Below, in pieces: positions 41,569-49,954 of a DNA stretch of 49,954 bases. Both the position numbers and the translations under genes were made by a program. Each line of letters opens with the position of its first letter. Position 1 is the stretch's first letter. The DNA is from an uncultured Eubacteriales bacterium (lineage in GTDB: Bacteria > Bacillota > Clostridia > Oscillospirales > Oscillospiraceae). The stretch lies in assembly GCA_900319275.1 (NCBI GenBank), contig ONNS01000070.1, positions 1-49,954 of the forward strand, given 5' to 3'. The notes beneath the pieces were generated by a model. The model worked only from the letters and a program-made list of their open reading frames with translations. It searched no databases and was not told the origin of the DNA.

Positions 41569-44028
41569 TTACCTTTGTTCGTTTACGTAGATATTCGCCT
41601 TGCTCTGGATCAGTTTGGCGACCTCCTCGGCGCTCTTGTCGCCGGCGAAGAAGGCCTCGGCCTGCTCGCTGATGATTTTCAATATCTCGTCGTTGGCGCT
41701 CGTCGTGCGCGTGGTGTTGTTGATGGCCTCCATCAGCTTGTCGGCCATCGGCTGGCTGACGGCGTAGAACTGGAAGTCGATGCCGTTGCCAAGGCTGCTG
41801 CCGCCGATGCTCCGCTCGATGCGCTCGCCGTTGGCGTCCAGCTTGTAATTGCCGTCGGCGTCCTTCTCGTACTGGGGCGTCATGGCCTCCTTCAATCGCT
41901 GCTCAAAGGCGGCGCGGTTGGTCGGGAAGCCGTAGCTGTTGCTGTCGAGCTGGCTGTCCTTGCTCAAGGTCGAGCGTATGAACTCCCAGGCGAGCTGGCT
42001 GTCCCTGCAGTCGCGTGTGATCGCATAGGCGCTGTTGGCCACATCAAACAGACTGCCGACGCCGCTCGTGGTCGGGTAGCCGATCAGCGTATAGCCGTTC
42101 TCGCGCCCGCCGAAGAGATAGACGTACTGGAACAGATCGTGGAAATCGCTGAGATAGGCTGTTGTCAGCAACTGCTGGCCGGAGATGATGCGCTCGTAGT
42201 CGTTGTCTTCGATGGTCTCGTAATTGATCGTGCTCTCATCGGGGAACTGCGCACAGTATTTGAGCAGCTCGACAAAGCCGGGATCGGTGAAGTTGACCTC
42301 GCCGGTCTCCCAGTTGACATAGCGGTCAAGCTCAAGAATCACGGTCGAGCGCAGCATGGCGCTGCGGCCTGTATAGGGAGAGAAGGCCGTGGCACCCTCG
42401 GGCAGCTCACGCAGCGCGGCCTCCATATCCTGCGCGGTCCAGCCGGGCTCCTCACCGACAAGCTCCGAGGCCGCGGCGAGCGTGATGACGCTGAAGGTGC
42501 TGGGGATGCCGTAGAGCTTGCCGCCCTCCTCGAGCGCTGTCAGCAGCGTCGGGAAGAAAGAGTCGCGGGTGATTTCGCTGTCGGCGTCGAGGAAGGGATA
42601 GAGATCCTGCAGCAATCCGCGCGCGCCGAGCTGGTCGGCCGGCATCTGGTTGAGATCGAGGATGTCGGGCATGCGCCCCGATAGGATCTCGGTCTTCAGC
42701 TTGGTCAGACCGGCGGAATAATCGTTCTCTGTGTTATACTCGGAGTAGTCGACAACCTCAATGTGCGCCGTCGGGTGGCTGCGGTTGAAGTCGATGATCG
42801 CATCGCGCGCGTCAAAGCCGAGCCCCTGCGTGGCGAGCGTCAGCGTCGTGCGTGCCGGGAGACTCGAGGCGGGGACGCGGCGGAGCGTGACCATTTCCAT
42901 CTCGACGCTGTCGGTGCTGTTGCGCCAGCGCGTCTCGACGCCGATCACGCTGCCGTCCCCGGCCATCGAATAAAAGGCCAGGCGAACAGGGTTCACATCG
43001 CAGTTGACCCAGTTGAACAGCTTTTCGTCACCCTCGGCCTTTGCGCCGTAGAAGGACATGCCGTCGGAATAGTAATAGAGATAGTCGCCGCTGCCATCGA
43101 TCAGGCGGTAGAGGTCGATGCCGGTGTTGACGGGCAGCTTCTCCCCGAGCTTGCCGTCGGTGAGCACCGCGAGCTCCGGCCCGTTGTCGCCCCAGTAGCC
43201 GACAGCCAGGCGGCCGTCAGAAAGGCGGACGATCTTTTCGGCGTATGAAACGCCGTCGATGGTCGAGAGCAGCGCGCCGCTGCCGATATCGAAGACACAG
43301 AGCTTGTCGCTGCAGACGATCAGTTTGTCCTTATCCACAGCGGCCGAGTAGATCCCGAAATAGCCCTCCTCGGCCACGCGGCTCACATCCAGCGTAACAG
43401 AGCTCTGCACAGCCCCGTTTGCGTCGAGCGTGCGGAGACACTGGCTGCTGTTGTTCTTCCAGTAGCGCCAGTAGTCCATGTCCGAGCTGGTCACACCCTC
43501 GGGCGCGTCGACCCAGCTCTCGCTGACCTCAAGGATTTCAAGGAAGCCGCCGTCCGTGCGCAGCAGCGCTGTGCCGTAGGCCGAGACATCGTGGTCGGCC
43601 GCGACCTCGGGCAGCTCCACCGGGGTGTAGCCCGCCACCGGTCTGGCCGAGCCGTCGGCAGATACGAAGTATAGGCGCGGACGGACGCGGTCGAGCTGGC
43701 CCTCGTAGTCCAGCGACTCGTTGTCACGCAGCTCGCGCTGGCCGACGACCTCGTTGCGGTAGGCGTAGTAACCGCCGTCGGCCGCCAGGACAAACGAGAG
43801 ATAGTCCGCGCCCTCGCCCTCCATGTTCAGTTCGGCAAAGGACGCGGTATAGACATACTCGCTGCCCGCCGCGGCGGGGGTAGGGGCAGCTGCGCCGCCC
43901 TTCGCACTGCCGGCACTGCTGCCGGAGGGATTGCCGGAACCGCCGGATTCACGGCCGCTGCAGGCCGTCAGCGCCAGTACCATGGCGAGGCACAGAAGCA
44001 GCGATAAGATTCTGGAAAGCTTTTTCAT
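41569..44028 (-). CDS. Large lipoprotein: N-terminal propeller-like region fused to an extracellular solute-binding domain
   Basis: 819 residues from ATG 44028 (MKKLSRILSLLLC), preceded by AAGGAG. The lipobox LTAC is followed by a Gly/Ser/Ala linker. Residues ~60-390 are made of repeating beta-strand segments (for example LLRTDGGFLEILEVSES, KLIVCSDKLCVFDIGSGALL) suggestive of a beta-propeller. Residues ~400-815 resemble an ABC solute-binding protein: LTLATQGLGFDARDAIIDFN, MPDILDLNQMP, GGKLYGIPSTFSV, and a C-terminal EFIRSTLS stretch. No permease or ATPase lies nearby. It is membrane-tethered outside the cell. The ligand is unknown. Confidence 0.85.
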   Translation of the reverse strand: MKKLSRILSLLLCLAMVLALTACSGRESGGSGNPSGSSAGSAKGGAAAPTPAAAGSEYVYTASFAELNMEGEGADYLSFVLAADGGYYAYRNEVVGQRELRDNESLDYEGQLDRVRPRLYFVSADGSARPVAGYTPVELPEVAADHDVSAYGTALLRTDGGFLEILEVSESWVDAPEGVTSSDMDYWRYWKNNSSQCLRTLDANGAVQSSVTLDVSRVAEEGYFGIYSAAVDKDKLIVCSDKLCVFDIGSGALLSTIDGVSYAEKIVRLSDGRLAVGYWGDNGPELAVLTDGKLGEKLPVNTGIDLYRLIDGSGDYLYYYSDGMSFYGAKAEGDEKLFNWVNCDVNPVRLAFYSMAGDGSVIGVETRWRNSTDSVEMEMVTLRRVPASSLPARTTLTLATQGLGFDARDAIIDFNRSHPTAHIEVVDYSEYNTENDYSAGLTKLKTEILSGRMPDILDLNQMPADQLGARGLLQDLYPFLDADSEITRDSFFPTLLTALEEGGKLYGIPSTFSVITLAAASELVGEEPGWTAQDMEAALRELPEGATAFSPYTGRSAMLRSTVILELDRYVNWETGEVNFTDPGFVELLKYCAQFPDESTINYETIEDNDYERIISGQQLLTTAYLSDFHDLFQYVYLFGGRENGYTLIGYPTTSGVGSLFDVANSAYAITRDCRDSQLAWEFIRSTLSKDSQLDSNSYGFPTNRAAFEQRLKEAMTPQYEKDADGNYKLDANGERIERSIGGSSLGNGIDFQFYAVSQPMADKLMEAINNTTRTTSANDEILKIISEQAEAFFAGDKSAEEVAKLIQSKANIYVNEQR

Positions 44029-44129
44029 GGGCGTTCTCCTTCTGATAGCCGTAATATCCATCGCAGTTGCAATTCACGAATCGCCCGCGACGACTGTATT
44101 AACCCTATTGATACGCTTAAGTCTGCCTC

Positions 44130-44158
44130 AGTATAGCGCAGGCGCCCTCCGCTGTCAA
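44130..44158 (-). promoter_or_regulatory. Sigma-A promoter of the lipoprotein gene, inside a hairpin
   Basis: A perfect TTGACA (44153-44158), a 17-base spacer and TATACT (44130-44135). The -35 sits in the loop between arms CCCTCCGC and GCGGAGGG, and the hairpin may serve as a plus-strand terminator. Confidence 0.75.
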
Positions 44159-44201
44159 TCGGCGGAGGGCGGTTTTAAGAATTCTTAAGAATGTGCAAAC
44201 G

Positions 44202-45344
44202 CTATCGGCAGTTCTCGTCGAGAATATCCAGTACGATCTCCTTCGCCGTCTCCAGCCGCTCGAGTGTGATATGCTCGTAAGGGCCGTGGCAGGCGTAGCC
44301 GCCGGTACCGATGTTCGGGCAGGGCAGACCGCGAAAGCTCAGCTGCGCGCCGTCGGTGCCGCCGCGCACGGGAACGCGGACAGGCGCAAGACCGACACGG
44401 CGGATGGCCCGCTCGGCCAGCTCCACGACCTCCATGTGATCGGCGAGCACTTCGGCCATGTTGCGGTACTGATCGCGGACCGTCAGCACGGCAGTGCCGG
44501 CGCCGTAGATCTCGTTGATGCGCGCCTCGACGCGGCGCAGCAGATCCTTGCGCGCGGCAAAGACAGCCGCGTCATGGTCACGGATGATGTAGCTGAGCGA
44601 CGCATGGTCGACGGCGCCGTGCATCTCGATCAGATGGAAGAAGCCCTCGCGTCCCTCGGTGTGCTCGGGGCGGTCGGTCGCGGGCAGCATCGCGTCGATC
44701 TCCATGGCGATGTGGGAGGCGTTGACCATCATGTTCTTGGCCGCGCCGGGGTGGATGTTGACGCCGTTGATCTCAAAACGCGCACTGGCGGCGTTGAAGG
44801 TCTCGAAATTGATCTCTTCCAGCTCCTCGCCGTCGACCGTGTAGGCAAAGGCGGCGCCGAGGCGCTCGAGATCCAGCAGGGCCGCGCCGTGGCCGACCTC
44901 CTCGTCGGGTGTGAAGCACACGGCCACACGGCCGTGGGGACGGTGCTCGTCGATCAGCGTCTGCACATGGCCGTGCATCACCGGCAGATGCGGGAACTTG
45001 GCCGTGCTCAGCACGCGGCCGGAGCTGCCGAGCACCACGTCGCCGCCGTCGTAGTTTTCAATGATCTGGGGCTTCACATTCTCACCGGGAAAATCGGGGA
45101 TCGTGTCGATATGCGCGATCAGACCGATGCAGGGCTTCTCCTCAAGGCCCGGCGTGGCGGGCAGATAGCCGTAGACATAGGCGTGCTCATCGACGTATAC
45201 GCCCGATACACCGAGCTCGTTGAGCTCGCGCTCCAGCTCGCGCGAGAGCGTAAACTGGCAGTCGGTCGTCGGGGTGCGCGAGGTGTCCTCCGAAGAGGCT
45301 GTGTGGGTGGTGACATAGGTCAGAAAACGTTCCAGGGTGGTCAT
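44202..45344 (-). CDS. pepT: Peptidase T (M20 tripeptidase) homologue lacking the bridging metal ligand segment
   Basis: 380 residues, against about 405-410 for the family. The metal residues His78 and Asp80 (GLIAHIDT), Glu148 and Glu149 (FTPDEEVG), Asp171 (YTVDGEEL) and the C-terminal histidine (GGYACHGPYEH) are present. Between FPHLPVM and HGRVAV the family normally has about 25 more residues containing LLGADDKAG, whose Asp bridges the two zinc ions. Here that stretch is absent in frame. The family removes N-terminal residues from tripeptides. This copy is probably inactive or altered. Confidence 0.9.
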   Translation of the reverse strand: MTTLERFLTYVTTHTASSEDTSRTPTTDCQFTLSRELERELNELGVSGVYVDEHAYVYGYLPATPGLEEKPCIGLIAHIDTIPDFPGENVKPQIIENYDGGDVVLGSSGRVLSTAKFPHLPVMHGHVQTLIDEHRPHGRVAVCFTPDEEVGHGAALLDLERLGAAFAYTVDGEELEEINFETFNAASARFEINGVNIHPGAAKNMMVNASHIAMEIDAMLPATDRPEHTEGREGFFHLIEMHGAVDHASLSYIIRDHDAAVFAARKDLLRRVEARINEIYGAGTAVLTVRDQYRNMAEVLADHMEVVELAERAIRRVGLAPVRVPVRGGTDGAQLSFRGLPCPNIGTGGYACHGPYEHITLERLETAKEIVLDILDENCR

Positions 45345-45418
45345 GATTTTTGTATTGTCCTTTCCATATATTTATGATGAAGCACATTGGGTTAACGGGT
45401 AAGAAGCGGTTCGGCGCC

Positions 45419-45482
45419 CACCTCATCCGTCATTCGGCTTGCGGGAGACGCCGAATGCCACCTTCCCCTCACAGGGGAAGGC
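45419..45482. repeat. Family B repeat
   Basis: CACCTCATCCG, then a hairpin with CATTCGGC and GCCGAATG arms, then CCACCTTCCCCTC-ACA-GGGGAAGGC. Confidence 0.75.
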
Positions 45483-45484
45483 AT

Positions 45485-46231
45485 TTATTGCCATATTTCG
45501 GCCGTCACAAACTGGCGGCCTTTTTTGCTGAGCCCGCCAAGACTGATGAGCTGGCCCTTGCCGCTGCCGCGCAGGGAGAGAATATCGCCCTCCTTGACAG
45601 CAAAGTCCGGTTTAAGGGTCTCGGAATAGTTTATACTGACGGCACCGAGGGCGATCTGGCGGGCGGCCTCACTGCGGGAGATGTGGAACATGCCGGCGAC
45701 GATCGCATCGAGACGCAGGCTCTGCACCGAGAACGTGAGTTCTTTGACTTTCCGCACGCGCGGCGGGATGTCGGCGAGCGCGATCGGCTGCGCCGTCACA
45801 CTGACGCGGCCCGCCTTCTCGATACCGAGCAGATGCCGCTCGACCGACGGGAGACAGAAGACGATGGCCGTGCTCTCGTCGACCCAGATATCGCCCAGCC
45901 ATTCGCGGCCGATGCCCATGCCGAGCAGCGCGCCCATGTAGTCGCGGTGGCCCGGCGTGCCGAAGTGTGCCGTCAGGCGGAAGGCGCGGATATATTCGTT
46001 GACATCCAGCAGCTCCTCCTCGAGCCAGTCCGGCAGGAAAAACGCGAGCTGCCGCTCGCAGCCCTCAGCGCCGCCGCTGAAACAGAGTTTCACGTCACGG
46101 CGGTTTTTAAAGTACTGCGTCAGATCATACTGTTCGGCCGGGGTCAGAAAGAGCGTCGCGGCGACGACGCTCTGCCGCTCGGCCCGTTCGGCGAGTTCCT
46201 CAGCTCTTTTTCGTAATTCTTGCTGTTCCAT
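45485..46231 (-). CDS. ylmH: YlmH family S4-domain RNA-binding protein
   Basis: 248 residues; the start lies inside the 3' end of the upstream GTPase gene (32-base overlap). The N-terminal two-thirds match the YlmH pattern (ATLFLTPAEQY, LTAHFGTPGHRDYMGALLGM, GREWLGDIWV). The C-terminus is an S4 domain (LRLDAIVAGMFHISRSEAAR, then IALGAVSINYSETLKPDFAVKEGD). YlmH in Bacillus has been linked to ribosome-associated quality control on stalled 50S subunits. The coupling to a ribosomal GTPase-nuclease fusion fits that role. Confidence 0.92.
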   Translation of the reverse strand: MEQQELRKRAEELAERAERQSVVAATLFLTPAEQYDLTQYFKNRRDVKLCFSGGAEGCERQLAFFLPDWLEEELLDVNEYIRAFRLTAHFGTPGHRDYMGALLGMGIGREWLGDIWVDESTAIVFCLPSVERHLLGIEKAGRVSVTAQPIALADIPPRVRKVKELTFSVQSLRLDAIVAGMFHISRSEAARQIALGAVSINYSETLKPDFAVKEGDILSLRGSGKGQLISLGGLSKKGRQFVTAEIWQ

Positions 46232-48794
46232 CCTGTAAGCTTGTCAGATGCGCGAGCTCGTTGGAGCGGCGCAGGACCTCCTCGATCTGGGAGCGGACAA
46301 AGCGTACCTCCTCTTCAAATTCCCGGCTGGAGCCGCGCAGGATCCCGGCGCCGAGGGCCGAGAGCTGGATCAGGCTGTCACTGGTGATGACGCGCACGGC
46401 GTAGTTTTTGCCGATGGAGCTCGCGATCCGCTCGATATAGGCGTCGGCGGTCTCACCCTGTTCGGTATAGGCGACGTGGATATTGTGATAATCTTCGCGT
46501 CGGCCGGTGCTGGCTGGCGTGCGGTAGGCGTCGAAGACCAGGACAAGCTCGGACTTGGTGTAGCTCGCGTAGTTCGAGAGCTCGTCCATCAGCCGCTGTC
46601 GGGCCAGGTCGAGATTGTCCGCGGCCAGCGCGCGCAGCTCCTCCCAGGCGAAGATCACATTGTAGCCGTCGACAATGAGGTATTTCTGCTTCTGGCTCTG
46701 GCTCCAGGCGAGGATCGGGGCCTCGTTTTTCGGCGGCGTGCGGTAGAGCGGCCGCCGCACCGGGCCGAACTCCCGCTCCATGATGGCCTCGAGCTCCCGC
46801 TCGTCGATCGAAAAGCTGCGCGGCCGTGCCGGCGGCGCGGCGTCGTTCCGCGGCTTTAAGACACTCGGCAGGTGCATGTACTCCGGCACCTTGTCCCACT
46901 TGACGGTGTAGCCCGCGCCGTGCGCGCAGAACACCGAATCGGGCGTGTTGTCGAGATCGGCCTCGGGGTCGTAGCCGAGCTCGGCAATAATCGGCGCGGC
47001 GTCCTTCACCTCGCGATAGCCGTTCGGGCGCAGACTGAGCCGCCCCTTGCCGCGTGTATAGGCGACAAGCTCCTCGGCGTAGCCGTTGAGCTTTGCCACC
47101 GGCGCAGAACCGGTGAGACGGCTGCGGCCGCCGAGCTCCTCGGGCGAATCGAACGCGCCGCCCATCGAGCGGATATCGCTGATTGCGCGGCCGATCTGCT
47201 CGGTCGGCAGTTCGAGCGTGAAGGCGTACCAGGGCTCGAGCAGCACGCTTTCGGAGCGCATCAGCCCCTGGCGCACAGCGCGGTAGGTCGCCTCGCGAAA
47301 ATCCCCGCCCTCGGTGTGCTTCAAGTGCGCCTTTCCGGCGCAGAGCGTCAGCTTGATATCGGTGATCGGCGAGCCGGTCAGCACGCCGAGATGGCGCTTC
47401 TCCCCCAGGTGCGTCAGGATCAGGCGCTGCCAGTTGCGGTCGAGCTCGTTTTCCGGGCAGACCGTATCGAGCACGATCCCGCTGCCGCGCGGCAGCGGCT
47501 CGAGCGTCAGGTGCACCTCGGCGTAGTGGCGCAGCGGCTCGAAATGGCCGACGCCCTCTACCTTATTCTGAATGGTCTCGCGGTAAAGGATGCGCCCGCT
47601 CGAGAGCGAAATATCCAGGTCAAAGCGCTCCTTGACGAGACTCTTTAAAATCTCCGTCTGCACCTTGCCCATCAGCTGCACCGCGATCTCGCGGCTGCGC
47701 TCGATCCAGACGACGTGCAGCTGTGGGTCCTCCTCCGAGAGCTGCAGGAACTTCGGCAGCAGCAGCCGTGCGTCGGCCTTGGGCGGCAGGATCACGCGGT
47801 AGCTCAGCACGGGCTCGAGCACCGGCGCGTCGGAATCCGGCTCGTCGCCGAGGCCCTGCCCGGGCCAGGTGCCCGTCAGGCCGAGGACGGCGACGGTCTG
47901 TCCGGCCGTGACCGCCTCCACGGCTTCGTATTTGCTGCCGGAATAGAGCCGCAGCTGGCTGACCTTCTCGTCGAGCTCCTCGCCGCCCTCGGTGCGGTAG
48001 CGCAGCGCGTCGCGCACGCGCAGCACCCCGGCCGTAACCTTCAGCCAGGTCAGGCGCTTGCCCTGGGCATCGCGCGCAATTTTATAGACCTTGGCCGAGA
48101 ATGGCCCGGAGCGCGTGCGGTCAAGTGTCCAGGTGTCGATCGCCGTGAGGAGCTCGTCGACGCCCTCGGTCTTCAAGCCGGAGCCGAAGAAGACCGGAAA
48201 CAGCTTTCGTTCGGTGATCAGCGCAGCGATCTCGCCGTCCGTCAGCGCGCCTTTTTCGAGATAGCGCTCCATGCTCGCCTCGTCGCAGAGGGCAAAGCGC
48301 TCGTCGCGGTCGTCGCCGTCAGCGGCCTGACAGCTCTCGCCGAGCTCGCGCTGCAGTCCGGCCAGGATCGCTTCGCGGCCGGGGCCGGGCAGGTCCATCT
48401 TCGTCACAAAAATAAAGGTCGGAACGCGATAGCGCCGCAGCAGCCTCCAGAGCGTCGCCGTGTGGGCCTGGACGCCGTCGGTGCCGGAGATCACAAGCAC
48501 CGCATAGTCGAGCACCTGCAGCGTCCGCTCGGCCTCGGCCGCAAAATCGACGTGGCCGGGCGTATCGAGCAGCGAGAGGTGCGTGTGCCCGAGCTCCAGC
48601 AGGGCCTGCTTCGAGAAGATCGTGATGCCGCGCTCGCGCTCGAGCGTATGGGTGTCAAGAAAGCTGTCGCGGTGGTCGACCCGCCCGAGCGTTTTCAGCC
48701 GCCCCGAGCGGAAGAGCATCGCCTCGGACAGCGTGGTCTTCCCCGCGTCCACATGGGCGAGGATCCCGAGTACGGTATTTTTCATTTCAGACAT
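46200..48794 (-). CDS. TetM-like ribosomal GTPase fused to a C-terminal Rae1/YacP NYN endoribonuclease
   Basis: 864 residues. Residues 1 to ~650 are an EF-G/TetM-type translational GTPase: P-loop AHVDAGKTT, switch RERGITI, DTPGHVDF, TKMD, then domains II to V (LPRGSGIVLDT near domain IV, GRAISDIRSMGGAF near domain V). A linker of about 50 residues leads to a second domain at ~704-840 that matches YacP/Rae1: LIVDGYNVIFAW, LVLVFDAYRT, GETADAYIERIA, VITSD and GAGILRGSSREF. Rae1 cuts mRNA in the ribosomal A site and TetM-like factors bind next to that site. The fusion suggests a ribosome-directed nuclease rather than tetracycline resistance. The ylmH start overlaps its end. Confidence 0.92.
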   Translation of the reverse strand: MSEMKNTVLGILAHVDAGKTTLSEAMLFRSGRLKTLGRVDHRDSFLDTHTLERERGITIFSKQALLELGHTHLSLLDTPGHVDFAAEAERTLQVLDYAVLVISGTDGVQAHTATLWRLLRRYRVPTFIFVTKMDLPGPGREAILAGLQRELGESCQAADGDDRDERFALCDEASMERYLEKGALTDGEIAALITERKLFPVFFGSGLKTEGVDELLTAIDTWTLDRTRSGPFSAKVYKIARDAQGKRLTWLKVTAGVLRVRDALRYRTEGGEELDEKVSQLRLYSGSKYEAVEAVTAGQTVAVLGLTGTWPGQGLGDEPDSDAPVLEPVLSYRVILPPKADARLLLPKFLQLSEEDPQLHVVWIERSREIAVQLMGKVQTEILKSLVKERFDLDISLSSGRILYRETIQNKVEGVGHFEPLRHYAEVHLTLEPLPRGSGIVLDTVCPENELDRNWQRLILTHLGEKRHLGVLTGSPITDIKLTLCAGKAHLKHTEGGDFREATYRAVRQGLMRSESVLLEPWYAFTLELPTEQIGRAISDIRSMGGAFDSPEELGGRSRLTGSAPVAKLNGYAEELVAYTRGKGRLSLRPNGYREVKDAAPIIAELGYDPEADLDNTPDSVFCAHGAGYTVKWDKVPEYMHLPSVLKPRNDAAPPARPRSFSIDERELEAIMEREFGPVRRPLYRTPPKNEAPILAWSQSQKQKYLIVDGYNVIFAWEELRALAADNLDLARQRLMDELSNYASYTKSELVLVFDAYRTPASTGRREDYHNIHVAYTEQGETADAYIERIASSIGKNYAVRVITSDSLIQLSALGAGILRGSSREFEEEVRFVRSQIEEVLRRSNELAHLTSLQDGTARITKKS

Positions 48795-48987
48795 GGTTCA
48801 TCTGTCCCGTGAATCATTTTTCATACATTGTATTTGAGCGTATTATTCTATCATCTCAGCGCCGATTGCGCAATACGAACTTCAGGTGTTTTGTGGTTTC
48901 CATAATCCAAATTGTTTACATAATGAGACCTCTTCATAGATTATTAAAACTTTTTTGCAACTTTGACTACCAATTTTGTAAAGGCTG

Positions 48988-48996
48988 TGTTATAAT
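48988..48996 (+). promoter_or_regulatory. Extended -10 element upstream of the response regulator
   Basis: TGT directly precedes TATAAT (48991-48996). The -35 at standard spacing is poor, while a TTGACT at 48963-48968 is too far at 22 bases. The rest of the 297-base divergent spacer 48795-49091 is AT-rich with no further recognised feature. Confidence 0.5.
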
Positions 48997-49091
48997 TCTT
49001 TAGAATGCTCTTACCCATGCGTTTTCCACCTGACCTGTGCAGGTCGGGCGGCAGTATTAGTCTGATCCATTTCCGAAAGGAGATTTAAGCT

Positions 49092-49781
49092 ATGAAAAAA
49101 ATCCTTGTCCTGGAGGACGAGTCCAATATTCGCTCCTTCGTCGTCATCAATCTGCGCCGCAGCGGATTTGATCCGATCGAGGCTGAAAACGGCGCGATGG
49201 CCCTGGAAAAGCTCAAGGCCAATCCGGATATCTGTCTGGCGCTGCTGGACGTGATGCTGCCGGACATCGACGGCTTTGAGGTCTGCCGCCGCATCCGCGC
49301 GACCGGCTCGAAAATCGGCATCATCATGCTCTCGGCCAAGAGCCAGGAGATCGACAAGGTCACGGGATTGATGAACGGCGCCGACGACTATGTGACCAAG
49401 CCCTTCTCCCCCGCCGAGCTGACCGCGCGTGTCGACGCGCTGATTCGCCGCCTCGGTGTGGATGAGGCCGAGGCCAACGCCAATGAGCTGCGCAGCGGCC
49501 CCTTCACGCTCAACACCCGCAACCGCACGCTTGAGAAGAACGGCCAGCGGCTGAAGCTGACGCAGATCGAGTACCTGCTGATGAAGCTCTTTATGGAAAA
49601 CCCCGGCAAGGCCATGAGCCGCGAGGATATTCTCTCGGCCGTCTGGGGCAGCGACTTCAAGGGCGAACTCAAGACCGTCGACGTCAACATCCGCCGTTTG
49701 CGCATCAAGATCGAATCCGACCCGACCGAGCCCGAGTTTCTCACGACAGTCTGGGGCTACGGCTATAAGTGGGGGTACTAA
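49092..49781 (+). CDS. OmpR/PhoB-family response regulator
   Basis: 229 residues; CGAAAGGAGA precedes ATG 49092. The receiver domain has the acidic pair in LEDES, the phospho-acceptor Asp53 in LLDVMLPDIDG, the switch Ser in MLSAKS and the lysine in DDYVTKPF. The C-terminal winged helix (LTQIEYLLMKLFMENPGKAM, TVDVNIRRLRIKIE, TTVWGYGYKW) binds DNA. A partner histidine kinase is not found in the 173 bases that follow, so it lies outside the window or elsewhere. Confidence 0.95.
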   Translation: MKKILVLEDESNIRSFVVINLRRSGFDPIEAENGAMALEKLKANPDICLALLDVMLPDIDGFEVCRRIRATGSKIGIIMLSAKSQEIDKVTGLMNGADDYVTKPFSPAELTARVDALIRRLGVDEAEANANELRSGPFTLNTRNRTLEKNGQRLKLTQIEYLLMKLFMENPGKAMSREDILSAVWGSDFKGELKTVDVNIRRLRIKIESDPTEPEFLTTVWGYGYKWGY

Positions 49782-49782
49782 C

Positions 49783-49820
49783 ATCATCGTTCAGTCCCCT
49801 AAGGGGGACTGAACGATGAT
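49783..49820. repeat. 17 bp stem hairpin, family E
   Basis: ATCATCGTTCAGTCCCC pairs perfectly with GGGGACTGAACGATGAT around TAAG. It shares the inner core with 34776-34798 but has different outer stem bases. The remainder to 49954 has no gene. Confidence 0.65.
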
Positions 49821-49954
49821 AGGAGCACTCGCGCTCATCGCACACGGCGCACGGGGACGCGCCGTTGCGTCAGAAGAAGCTCGCGGCACTCCGTTTCCGT
49901 CAGGCATGACGAAAACTACGCTCTGCTCGCTCCTTCTTCCTTTACAAAATCAAA

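Follow-up and report, generated by a model that had tools for sequence, protein, structure and literature searches.

This study examined a gene on a 49,954-nucleotide stretch of DNA from an uncultured Eubacteriales bacterium (contig ONNS01000070.1 of assembly GCA_900319275.1; hereafter, the window). At 46200..48794 on the minus strand, a single 864-residue frame with an ATG start joins a five-domain GTPase of the EF-G/Tet type to a nuclease domain of the YacP/Rae1 type in the NYN family, as an earlier note on this DNA had claimed. The fusion is real, widespread, and sometimes mislabelled. From its sequence and distribution, we assign a probability of approximately 60% to the reading that it is a two-module ribosome factor performing the task of Rae1, that is, a GTPase-docked mRNA nuclease for stalled ribosomes that has replaced stand-alone Rae1. 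The gene and its parts are as follows.

46200..48794, minus strand: fusion gene, an EF-G/Tet-family translational GTPase followed by a NYN_YacP (Rae1-type) nuclease (Pfam, alignment with 5mq8/5mq9, AlphaFold).
48129..48773, minus strand: G domain, GTP_EFTU, residues 8-222, 160 bits (Pfam; motif conservation).
47868..48104, minus strand: EF-G domain 2, EF-G_D2, residues 231-309, 28.6 bits against a cut-off of 27 (Pfam).
47604..47816, minus strand: EF-G domain III, EFG_III, residues 327-397, 26.3 bits, slightly below the cut-off of 27 (Pfam; fold).
47253..47597, minus strand: EF-G domain IV, EFG_IV, residues 400-514, 59.9 bits (Pfam).
47298..47333, minus strand: tip loop III of domain IV, residues 488-499, KAHLKHTEGGDF, specific to the family and different from TetM/TetW (alignments).
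47001..47246, minus strand: EF-G domain V, EFG_C, residues 517-598, 63.4 bits (Pfam).
46860..47000, minus strand: family-specific tail, residues 599-645, consensus SVFCxHGxGxxVxWxxVxxYMH (alignments).
46686..46859, minus strand: variable linker, residues 646-703, poorly predicted (alignment; AlphaFold).
46257..46679, minus strand: NYN_YacP nuclease domain, residues 706-846, with the acids D709, D755, D784, E788, and D806 (Pfam; alignments).

The Pfam search that the earlier note had proposed matched the EF-G domains and revealed a strong NYN_YacP match (146.1 bits against a cut-off of 24.6, E 1.3e-42) at residues 706-846, close to the range of 700-840 named in the note; the Rae1-like motifs and Asp709 lay at their predicted places. 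The nuclease part aligned with the solved Bacillus subtilis YacP/Rae1 structures 5mq8/5mq9 (E 1.1e-23). The G domain, domains II to V, and the intact G motifs (AHVDAGKTT, RGITI, DTPGH, and TKMD) place the protein among the EF2-type translational GTPases. AlphaFold returned a mean predicted local distance difference test score (pLDDT) of 84.9 and a predicted template modelling score of 0.67, with the GTPase part folded and the NYN domain mainly confident apart from a weak patch at 807-813. Linker segments 650-667 and 677-701 fell below a pLDDT of 50, and the linker from H641 to D709 spanned 65-146 residues across 61 relatives. The 50 entries listed in VIA (EF-G, EF-2, RF3, LepA, and spliceosomal entries) matched residues 1-639; no Rae1 or TetM row was among these 50, a list that one domain fills and that thus did not probe the NYN part. 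A chance open reading frame, a read-through, or an assembly join was rejected as the source of the frame because the same architecture occurred in 105 of 291 genomes of the window's class.

Those 291 genomes constitute an even sample of the class (the class draw). A NYN_YacP match above the cut-off was present in 188 of them; the domain was fused to the GTPase in 105 and stood alone in 83, and no genome held both forms. The 105 include eight with a short, contig-end-cut, or broken frame (G051, G070, G081, G139, G180, G215, G221, and G224), and a genome with a sub-threshold match (G248) was counted in neither category. According to family labels, fusions occurred in 25 families and stand-alone genes in 30, with four families containing both in different species. 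Among 249 genomes drawn from the phylum, 133 had a match above the cut-off, comprising 16 fused and 117 unfused to a GTPase (frames up to 308 residues), and again none held both; five of the 16 were also in the class draw, giving 116 distinct fused genomes overall. Both states were found within single genera: genus g36 contained four fused species (G025, G136, G201, and G242) and one with stand-alone rae1 only (G059), and in genus g31, G020 and G054 were fused, G259 had the stand-alone gene, and G178 had neither. The window's own genome carries the fusion as its sole NYN_YacP match and has separate EF-G-type factors elsewhere. The fusion was mostly single-copy in carrier genomes; a draft genome of 61% completeness (G133) holds two fusion genes (L026 and G133:C48:3530-4012).

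The locus of the stand-alone gene was then compared between fused and unfused genomes. In seven of the eight stand-alone loci inspected, rae1 lay between rlmB and sigH, with cysS and the rRNA maturation gene mrnC upstream and sometimes other open reading frames between; the eighth locus kept only the rae1-sigH pair. The rae1 genes of G059 and G259 occupy this position. We inspected the rlmB site in 42 fused genomes of our own selection from the 116 distinct ones, and in 28 of them sigH followed downstream of rlmB with no intact rae1 in between. In G025, whose fusion is intact, the rlmB-sigH interval contained a rae1 pseudogene disrupted by stop codons and shifts of frame (L261, about 2353-2806; tblastn 2e-18), whereas G059, of the same genus, lacks a fusion and has rae1 intact at this position. 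A rae1 fragment was detected at the rlmB site of G112 (5e-6) and a C-terminal fragment at that of G133 (9e-9); weaker traces were observed in G199 (2.7e-4) and G086 (1e-3), and the remaining fused genomes among the 42 exhibited no rae1 remains there. The rlmB gene of the window's genome is on another contig, with no rae1 adjoining. Because the old site lacks an intact rae1 in 28 of 42 genomes and a broken rae1 in G025 contrasts with an intact one in its fusion-less congener, the fusion seems to replace Rae1. The most parsimonious account is that the function passed to a fusion acquired by relocation or transfer and that the original rae1 decayed. No conserved neighbourhood of the fusion was found across 51 fused loci, the commonest neighbour occurring in 7 of 51. 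The apparent replacement of stand-alone Rae1 supports the ribosome-directed mRNA cleavage that had been predicted for this gene.

Loss of the acidic residues among orthologues would have spoken against a nuclease; instead, D709, D755, D784, E788, and D806 were invariant in 51 of 51 diverse fusions and in 32 of 32 stand-alone proteins. In a nearer set of 61 fusions, D709, D755, D784, and D806 were present in all, and position 788 was E in 60. Counted on the alignments, the B. subtilis equivalents are D7, D53, D81, E85, and D104. The two forms differed at the C terminus: the motif L-x-x-x-R-R/K was present in 29 of 32 stand-alone proteins and in none of the 51 fused ones; the fusion of the window lacks it. 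The column of B. subtilis R165 held R in 31/32 stand-alone and 0/51 fused proteins, and that of R166 held R or K in 30/32 and 12/51, respectively, the fused alignment being doubtful at this column. In B. subtilis, R166P is among the rae1 alleles that suppress the loss of EF-P and is read as a loss of function in the available text of PMC6613710. These findings suggest that the C-terminal tail may help Rae1 on the ribosome and that the GTPase may make the tail unnecessary.

The NYN tree, in which stand-alone and fused domains intermix and three fused proteins adjoin the stand-alone clade, is compatible with one fusion event or several. The stand-alone Rae1 of G243 groups with fused domains yet keeps a stand-alone-like tail, and may have arisen by fission. 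Its gene (L311 5983-6504) lies away from rlmB-sigH, near genes that we take to be aspS/gatCAB, and this genome also has an unfused GTPase.

The earlier note had called the GTPase TetM-like. It is indeed an EF-G/Tet-type GTPase with intact motifs; nevertheless, judging from the alignments and the tree, the term overstates the kinship. The fusion GTPase is 28% identical to TetM, and although the NCBIfam model tet_protect was its best named match, the score of 388.9 bits fell below the cut-off of 775. In the GTPase tree, from which the partial frame of L. fermentum was omitted, TetM, TetW, TetB(P), and OtrA-like proteins formed one clade (support 100), and the fused and unfused members of the present family formed another (98). 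Within the latter, 21 unfused proteins grouped as a clade (96) adjacent to the fused ones (82), and an unfused L. salivarius protein fell among the fused with low support. The fusion also lacks a tip loop of the TetM type: H490, K492, H493, T494, G496, G497, D498, and F499 of loop III were identical in 43 of 43 fusions (A489 in 39, E495 in 37), whereas the TetM/TetW counterpart reads YYSPVSTPADF. PMC4750697 describes loop III as key for displacing tetracycline and reports that Tet(M) withstands some changes to it provided that the loop retains its shape; the difference is therefore a hint, and no proof, against resistance. In the G4 motif, the window has TKMD for NKMD at residue 131, the sole T among the 43 fusions first aligned; the nearer set of 61 contained T in 24, N in 33, and S in 4. 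The family tail after domain V also occurred in unfused relatives and was unaligned in TetM and EF-G.

An unfused GTPase of the family was present in 17 genomes of the class, of which 10 also had stand-alone Rae1 and 7 lacked any NYN domain; the 17 include G237, whose frame is broken, and exclude G131, in which a GTPase piece is cut by a contig end and which has no NYN domain. One unfused member (L072 3995-5929) lies on the megaplasmid pMP118 of L. salivarius UCC118, where it is annotated as TetM/W/O/S-type resistance and adjoins a plasmid rpsN (ribosomal protein S14). A 733-residue EF-G/Tet-like GTPase in G207 (L254 1276-3477) has about 75 extra N-terminal residues and is 35% identical to the window GTPase. 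Terminator-like sites were detected upstream of 13 of 51 fused genes compared with 3 of 153 mononucleotide shuffles, at scattered positions and in some cases possibly as the ends of upstream genes; no Rfam match was found at 44000-49954. With the sites scattered and no Rfam match there, the data did not support a conserved attenuator in the leader of the kind seen in tet(M). Mislabelling, which the earlier note had expected, was confirmed in a fused relative from Agathobacter rectalis annotated as "TetM/TetW/TetO/TetS family tetracycline resistance ribosomal protection protein"; another fused relative, from Monoglobus, is annotated as "translation factor GTPase family protein".

Downstream of the fusion gene lies a gene of ribosome quality control.

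45485..46231, minus strand: ylmH-type S4-domain gene, overlapping the 3' end of the fusion gene by 32 nucleotides (YlmH_RBD 34.9 bits, cut-off 23; S4 28.0 bits, cut-off 22.8).

YlmH is described as a ribosome quality-control factor, and ylmH of B. subtilis as part of the ylm operon, in the available text of PMC11317155. The ylmH gene of the window, the sole YlmH_RBD match in its genome, stands away from a ylm operon and is kept beside the fusion in close relatives; an RqcH-type NFACT protein is also present in the genome. The nearest genome loci were the best 80, a selection and not a census, of which 63 had an intact full-length fusion frame (60 of them entering alignment A3), 8 a frame cut by a contig end, 8 an odd frame, partly because the text search caught other proteins, and 1 none. 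At least 900 nucleotides of downstream sequence were available in 72 of these loci, and ylmH was next in 19: 16 of 17 with a fusion identity of at least 60%, 3 of 27 at 55-60%, and 0 of 28 below 55%. An in-frame candidate start codon for ylmH lay inside the 3' end of the fusion in 15 of the 19. Through this pairing, the fusion is tied to stalled-ribosome rescue, but solely in this lineage. On the other side, a response regulator of the OmpR/PhoB type (49092-49781, plus strand) is divergent from the fusion and is 85-90% identical in the seven near relatives that keep it there.

In the favoured reading, that of a GTPase-docked mRNA nuclease, the GTPase module would bind a ribosome whose A site is free, whether stalled or starved, at its factor site and bring the tethered nuclease to the mRNA. 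Targeting to ribosomes, for which stand-alone Rae1 may use its basic tail, would fall to the GTPase. Domain IV would leave the A site, and the nuclease would then swing in on the linker to cleave the message there or close by, with cleavage perhaps timed by GTP hydrolysis; alternatively, it might cleave where the mRNA enters the ribosome or on a collided neighbour. The ribosome would then be rescued, and in the window's lineage YlmH and the RqcH-type protein may extend the nascent chain. A broader and more tentative proposal, which we regard as possible but doubtful, is that such proteins form a class-wide set of GTP-driven rescue nucleases, in which an EF-G-type motor would sense the empty A site, domain IV and the NYN domain would be swapped under GTPase timing, and the cut complex would be fed to YlmH/RqcH; this would be a main mRNA-cutting rescue route in many Clostridia, partly hidden under a tetracycline-resistance label.

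Several observations weigh against the reading as a replacement for Rae1. The exclusion in the class draw is pronounced by Fisher's test (p 1.5e-20), which ignores shared ancestry, and in draft genomes an absence may reflect missing contigs. At the old site, sigH was not found in the stretch examined downstream of rlmB in 14 of 42 fused genomes, and clear rae1 remains were present in only 3 of 42. The stand-alone Rae1 proteins of G243 (support 97) and G262 (support 70) fall among the fused ones in the NYN tree. An association of the unfused GTPase with stand-alone Rae1 was rejected (10/17 compared with 83/186 non-fused genomes, p 0.31), suggesting that the GTPase has a role independent of the nuclease and that their fusion provides weak evidence for joint action. 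The fusion-ylmH pair was absent in 51 diverse loci, of which 50 were fused and one was the unfused locus of L. salivarius; only near relatives of the window show the YlmH link. Finally, a docked domain IV and Rae1 would clash in the A site; because they cannot share it, cutting must be sequential or take place elsewhere on the mRNA.

Three other explanations were weighed against this reading. One is a model of two independent activities in one chain, in which the GTPase is a second EF-G-like factor (for translocation, recycling, or ribosome splitting), the NYN domain acts alone as Rae1, and fusion only fixes their ratio. Such a model accommodates the 7 of 17 genomes with an unfused GTPase and no NYN domain, the long and poorly predicted linker, and the description of B. 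subtilis Rae1 as an A-site mRNA endonuclease acting as a stand-alone protein (available text of PMC6613710 and PMC12320835). Nevertheless, the C-terminal motif, kept by most stand-alone proteins and missing from all 51 fusions, suggests that the fused NYN domain depends on the GTPase for its placement, and we consider independent activities unlikely. The same description of Rae1 as an mRNA endonuclease argues against another model, in which the GTPase is a ribosome assembly factor and the NYN domain matures or trims rRNA or tRNA during that assembly. An early proposal of this kind for YacP/NYN is cited in PMC4342817. The positions of mrnC and rlmB, a gene of rRNA modification, near stand-alone rae1 agree with that proposal; however, the fusion gene is not located at rlmB, and none of its neighbours is a conserved maturation gene, which leaves this explanation very improbable.

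The explanation already in print, that of Atkinson 2015 (PMC4342817), would render the fusion a tetracycline ribosomal protection protein with an added nuclease, in which the GTPase would displace the drug, and cleavage of rRNA or mRNA by the NYN domain would add a further resistance mechanism. The domain order is that of Tet proteins, tet_protect is the best named match, the changes in loop III might be tolerable if its shape is kept, and the upstream terminator-like sites could include attenuators. Against these points, the tet_protect score is half of the curated cut-off, the family forms a clade separate from the Tet proteins, loop III differs, and the terminator-like sites lie at scattered positions; moreover, a gene that 105 of the 291 class genomes carry, mostly in one copy, and that is exchanged for rae1 is a poor fit for a resistance gene. 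A resistance role therefore appears quite improbable. If the fusion is instead a GTPase-docked mRNA nuclease that has replaced Rae1, a large share of Clostridia would police translation with ribosomal GTPase and mRNA cleavage in one chain, the questions of how Rae1 locates its ribosomes and what links mRNA cleavage to quality control would become directly testable, and a set of false tetracycline-resistance calls would be removed from genomes.

According to Atkinson 2015 (PMC4342817), a YacP-like NYN RNase domain was gained by the Tet proteins of ten clostridial species, and that study suggested that these proteins cleave rRNA or confer resistance by a new mechanism. The fusion itself is thus not new; it has been in print since 2015 but was not understood. 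Rae1 was reportedly recognised as an A-site nuclease later than that, by Leroy in 2017. In the literature searched, we found no paper on the fusion later than 2015, although Condon 2018, on the distribution of Rae1, could mention it, and no tested function for a ribosomal GTPase and mRNA cleavage in one chain. The exclusion and apparent replacement of Rae1, the lost C-terminal motif, the separate GTPase clade, and the ylmH overlap are new here.

Compared with known systems, the fusion belongs by sequence to the same NYN family as Rae1/YacP of B. subtilis (5mq8/5mq9), and all five conserved acids are common to both. Rae1 is a stand-alone protein of about 170 residues, encoded between rlmB and sigH in the stand-alone loci inspected and ending in the R-R/K motif, whereas the fusion lies elsewhere, lacks the motif, and has a GTPase in front; stand-alone Rae1 was absent wherever the fusion occurred in both draws. 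The TetM/TetO/TetW ribosomal protection proteins are likewise five-domain GTPases of the EF-G family with G motifs. The fusion shares 28% identity with TetM and TetW, and differs from the TetM/TetO/TetW group in its loop III, its tail, and its extra nuclease. The unfused "translation factor GTPase family" proteins (L. salivarius pMP118, Paenibacillus, Subdoligranulum, and some Clostridia) are 40-48% identical over about residues 1-641. The HTxGGDF tip-loop core was found in all 4 of those checked and the tail in all 3 that were complete; unlike the fusion, these proteins have no nuclease domain. The Tet-NYN proteins of Atkinson 2015 have the domain order and taxonomic group of the fusion, and we equate the two sets on this architecture only. 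That study files them as Tet proteins, whereas here the fusion forms a clade apart from TetM/TetW/TetB(P)/OtrA-like proteins, occurs in genomes without stand-alone Rae1, and bears a tip loop other than that of TetM.

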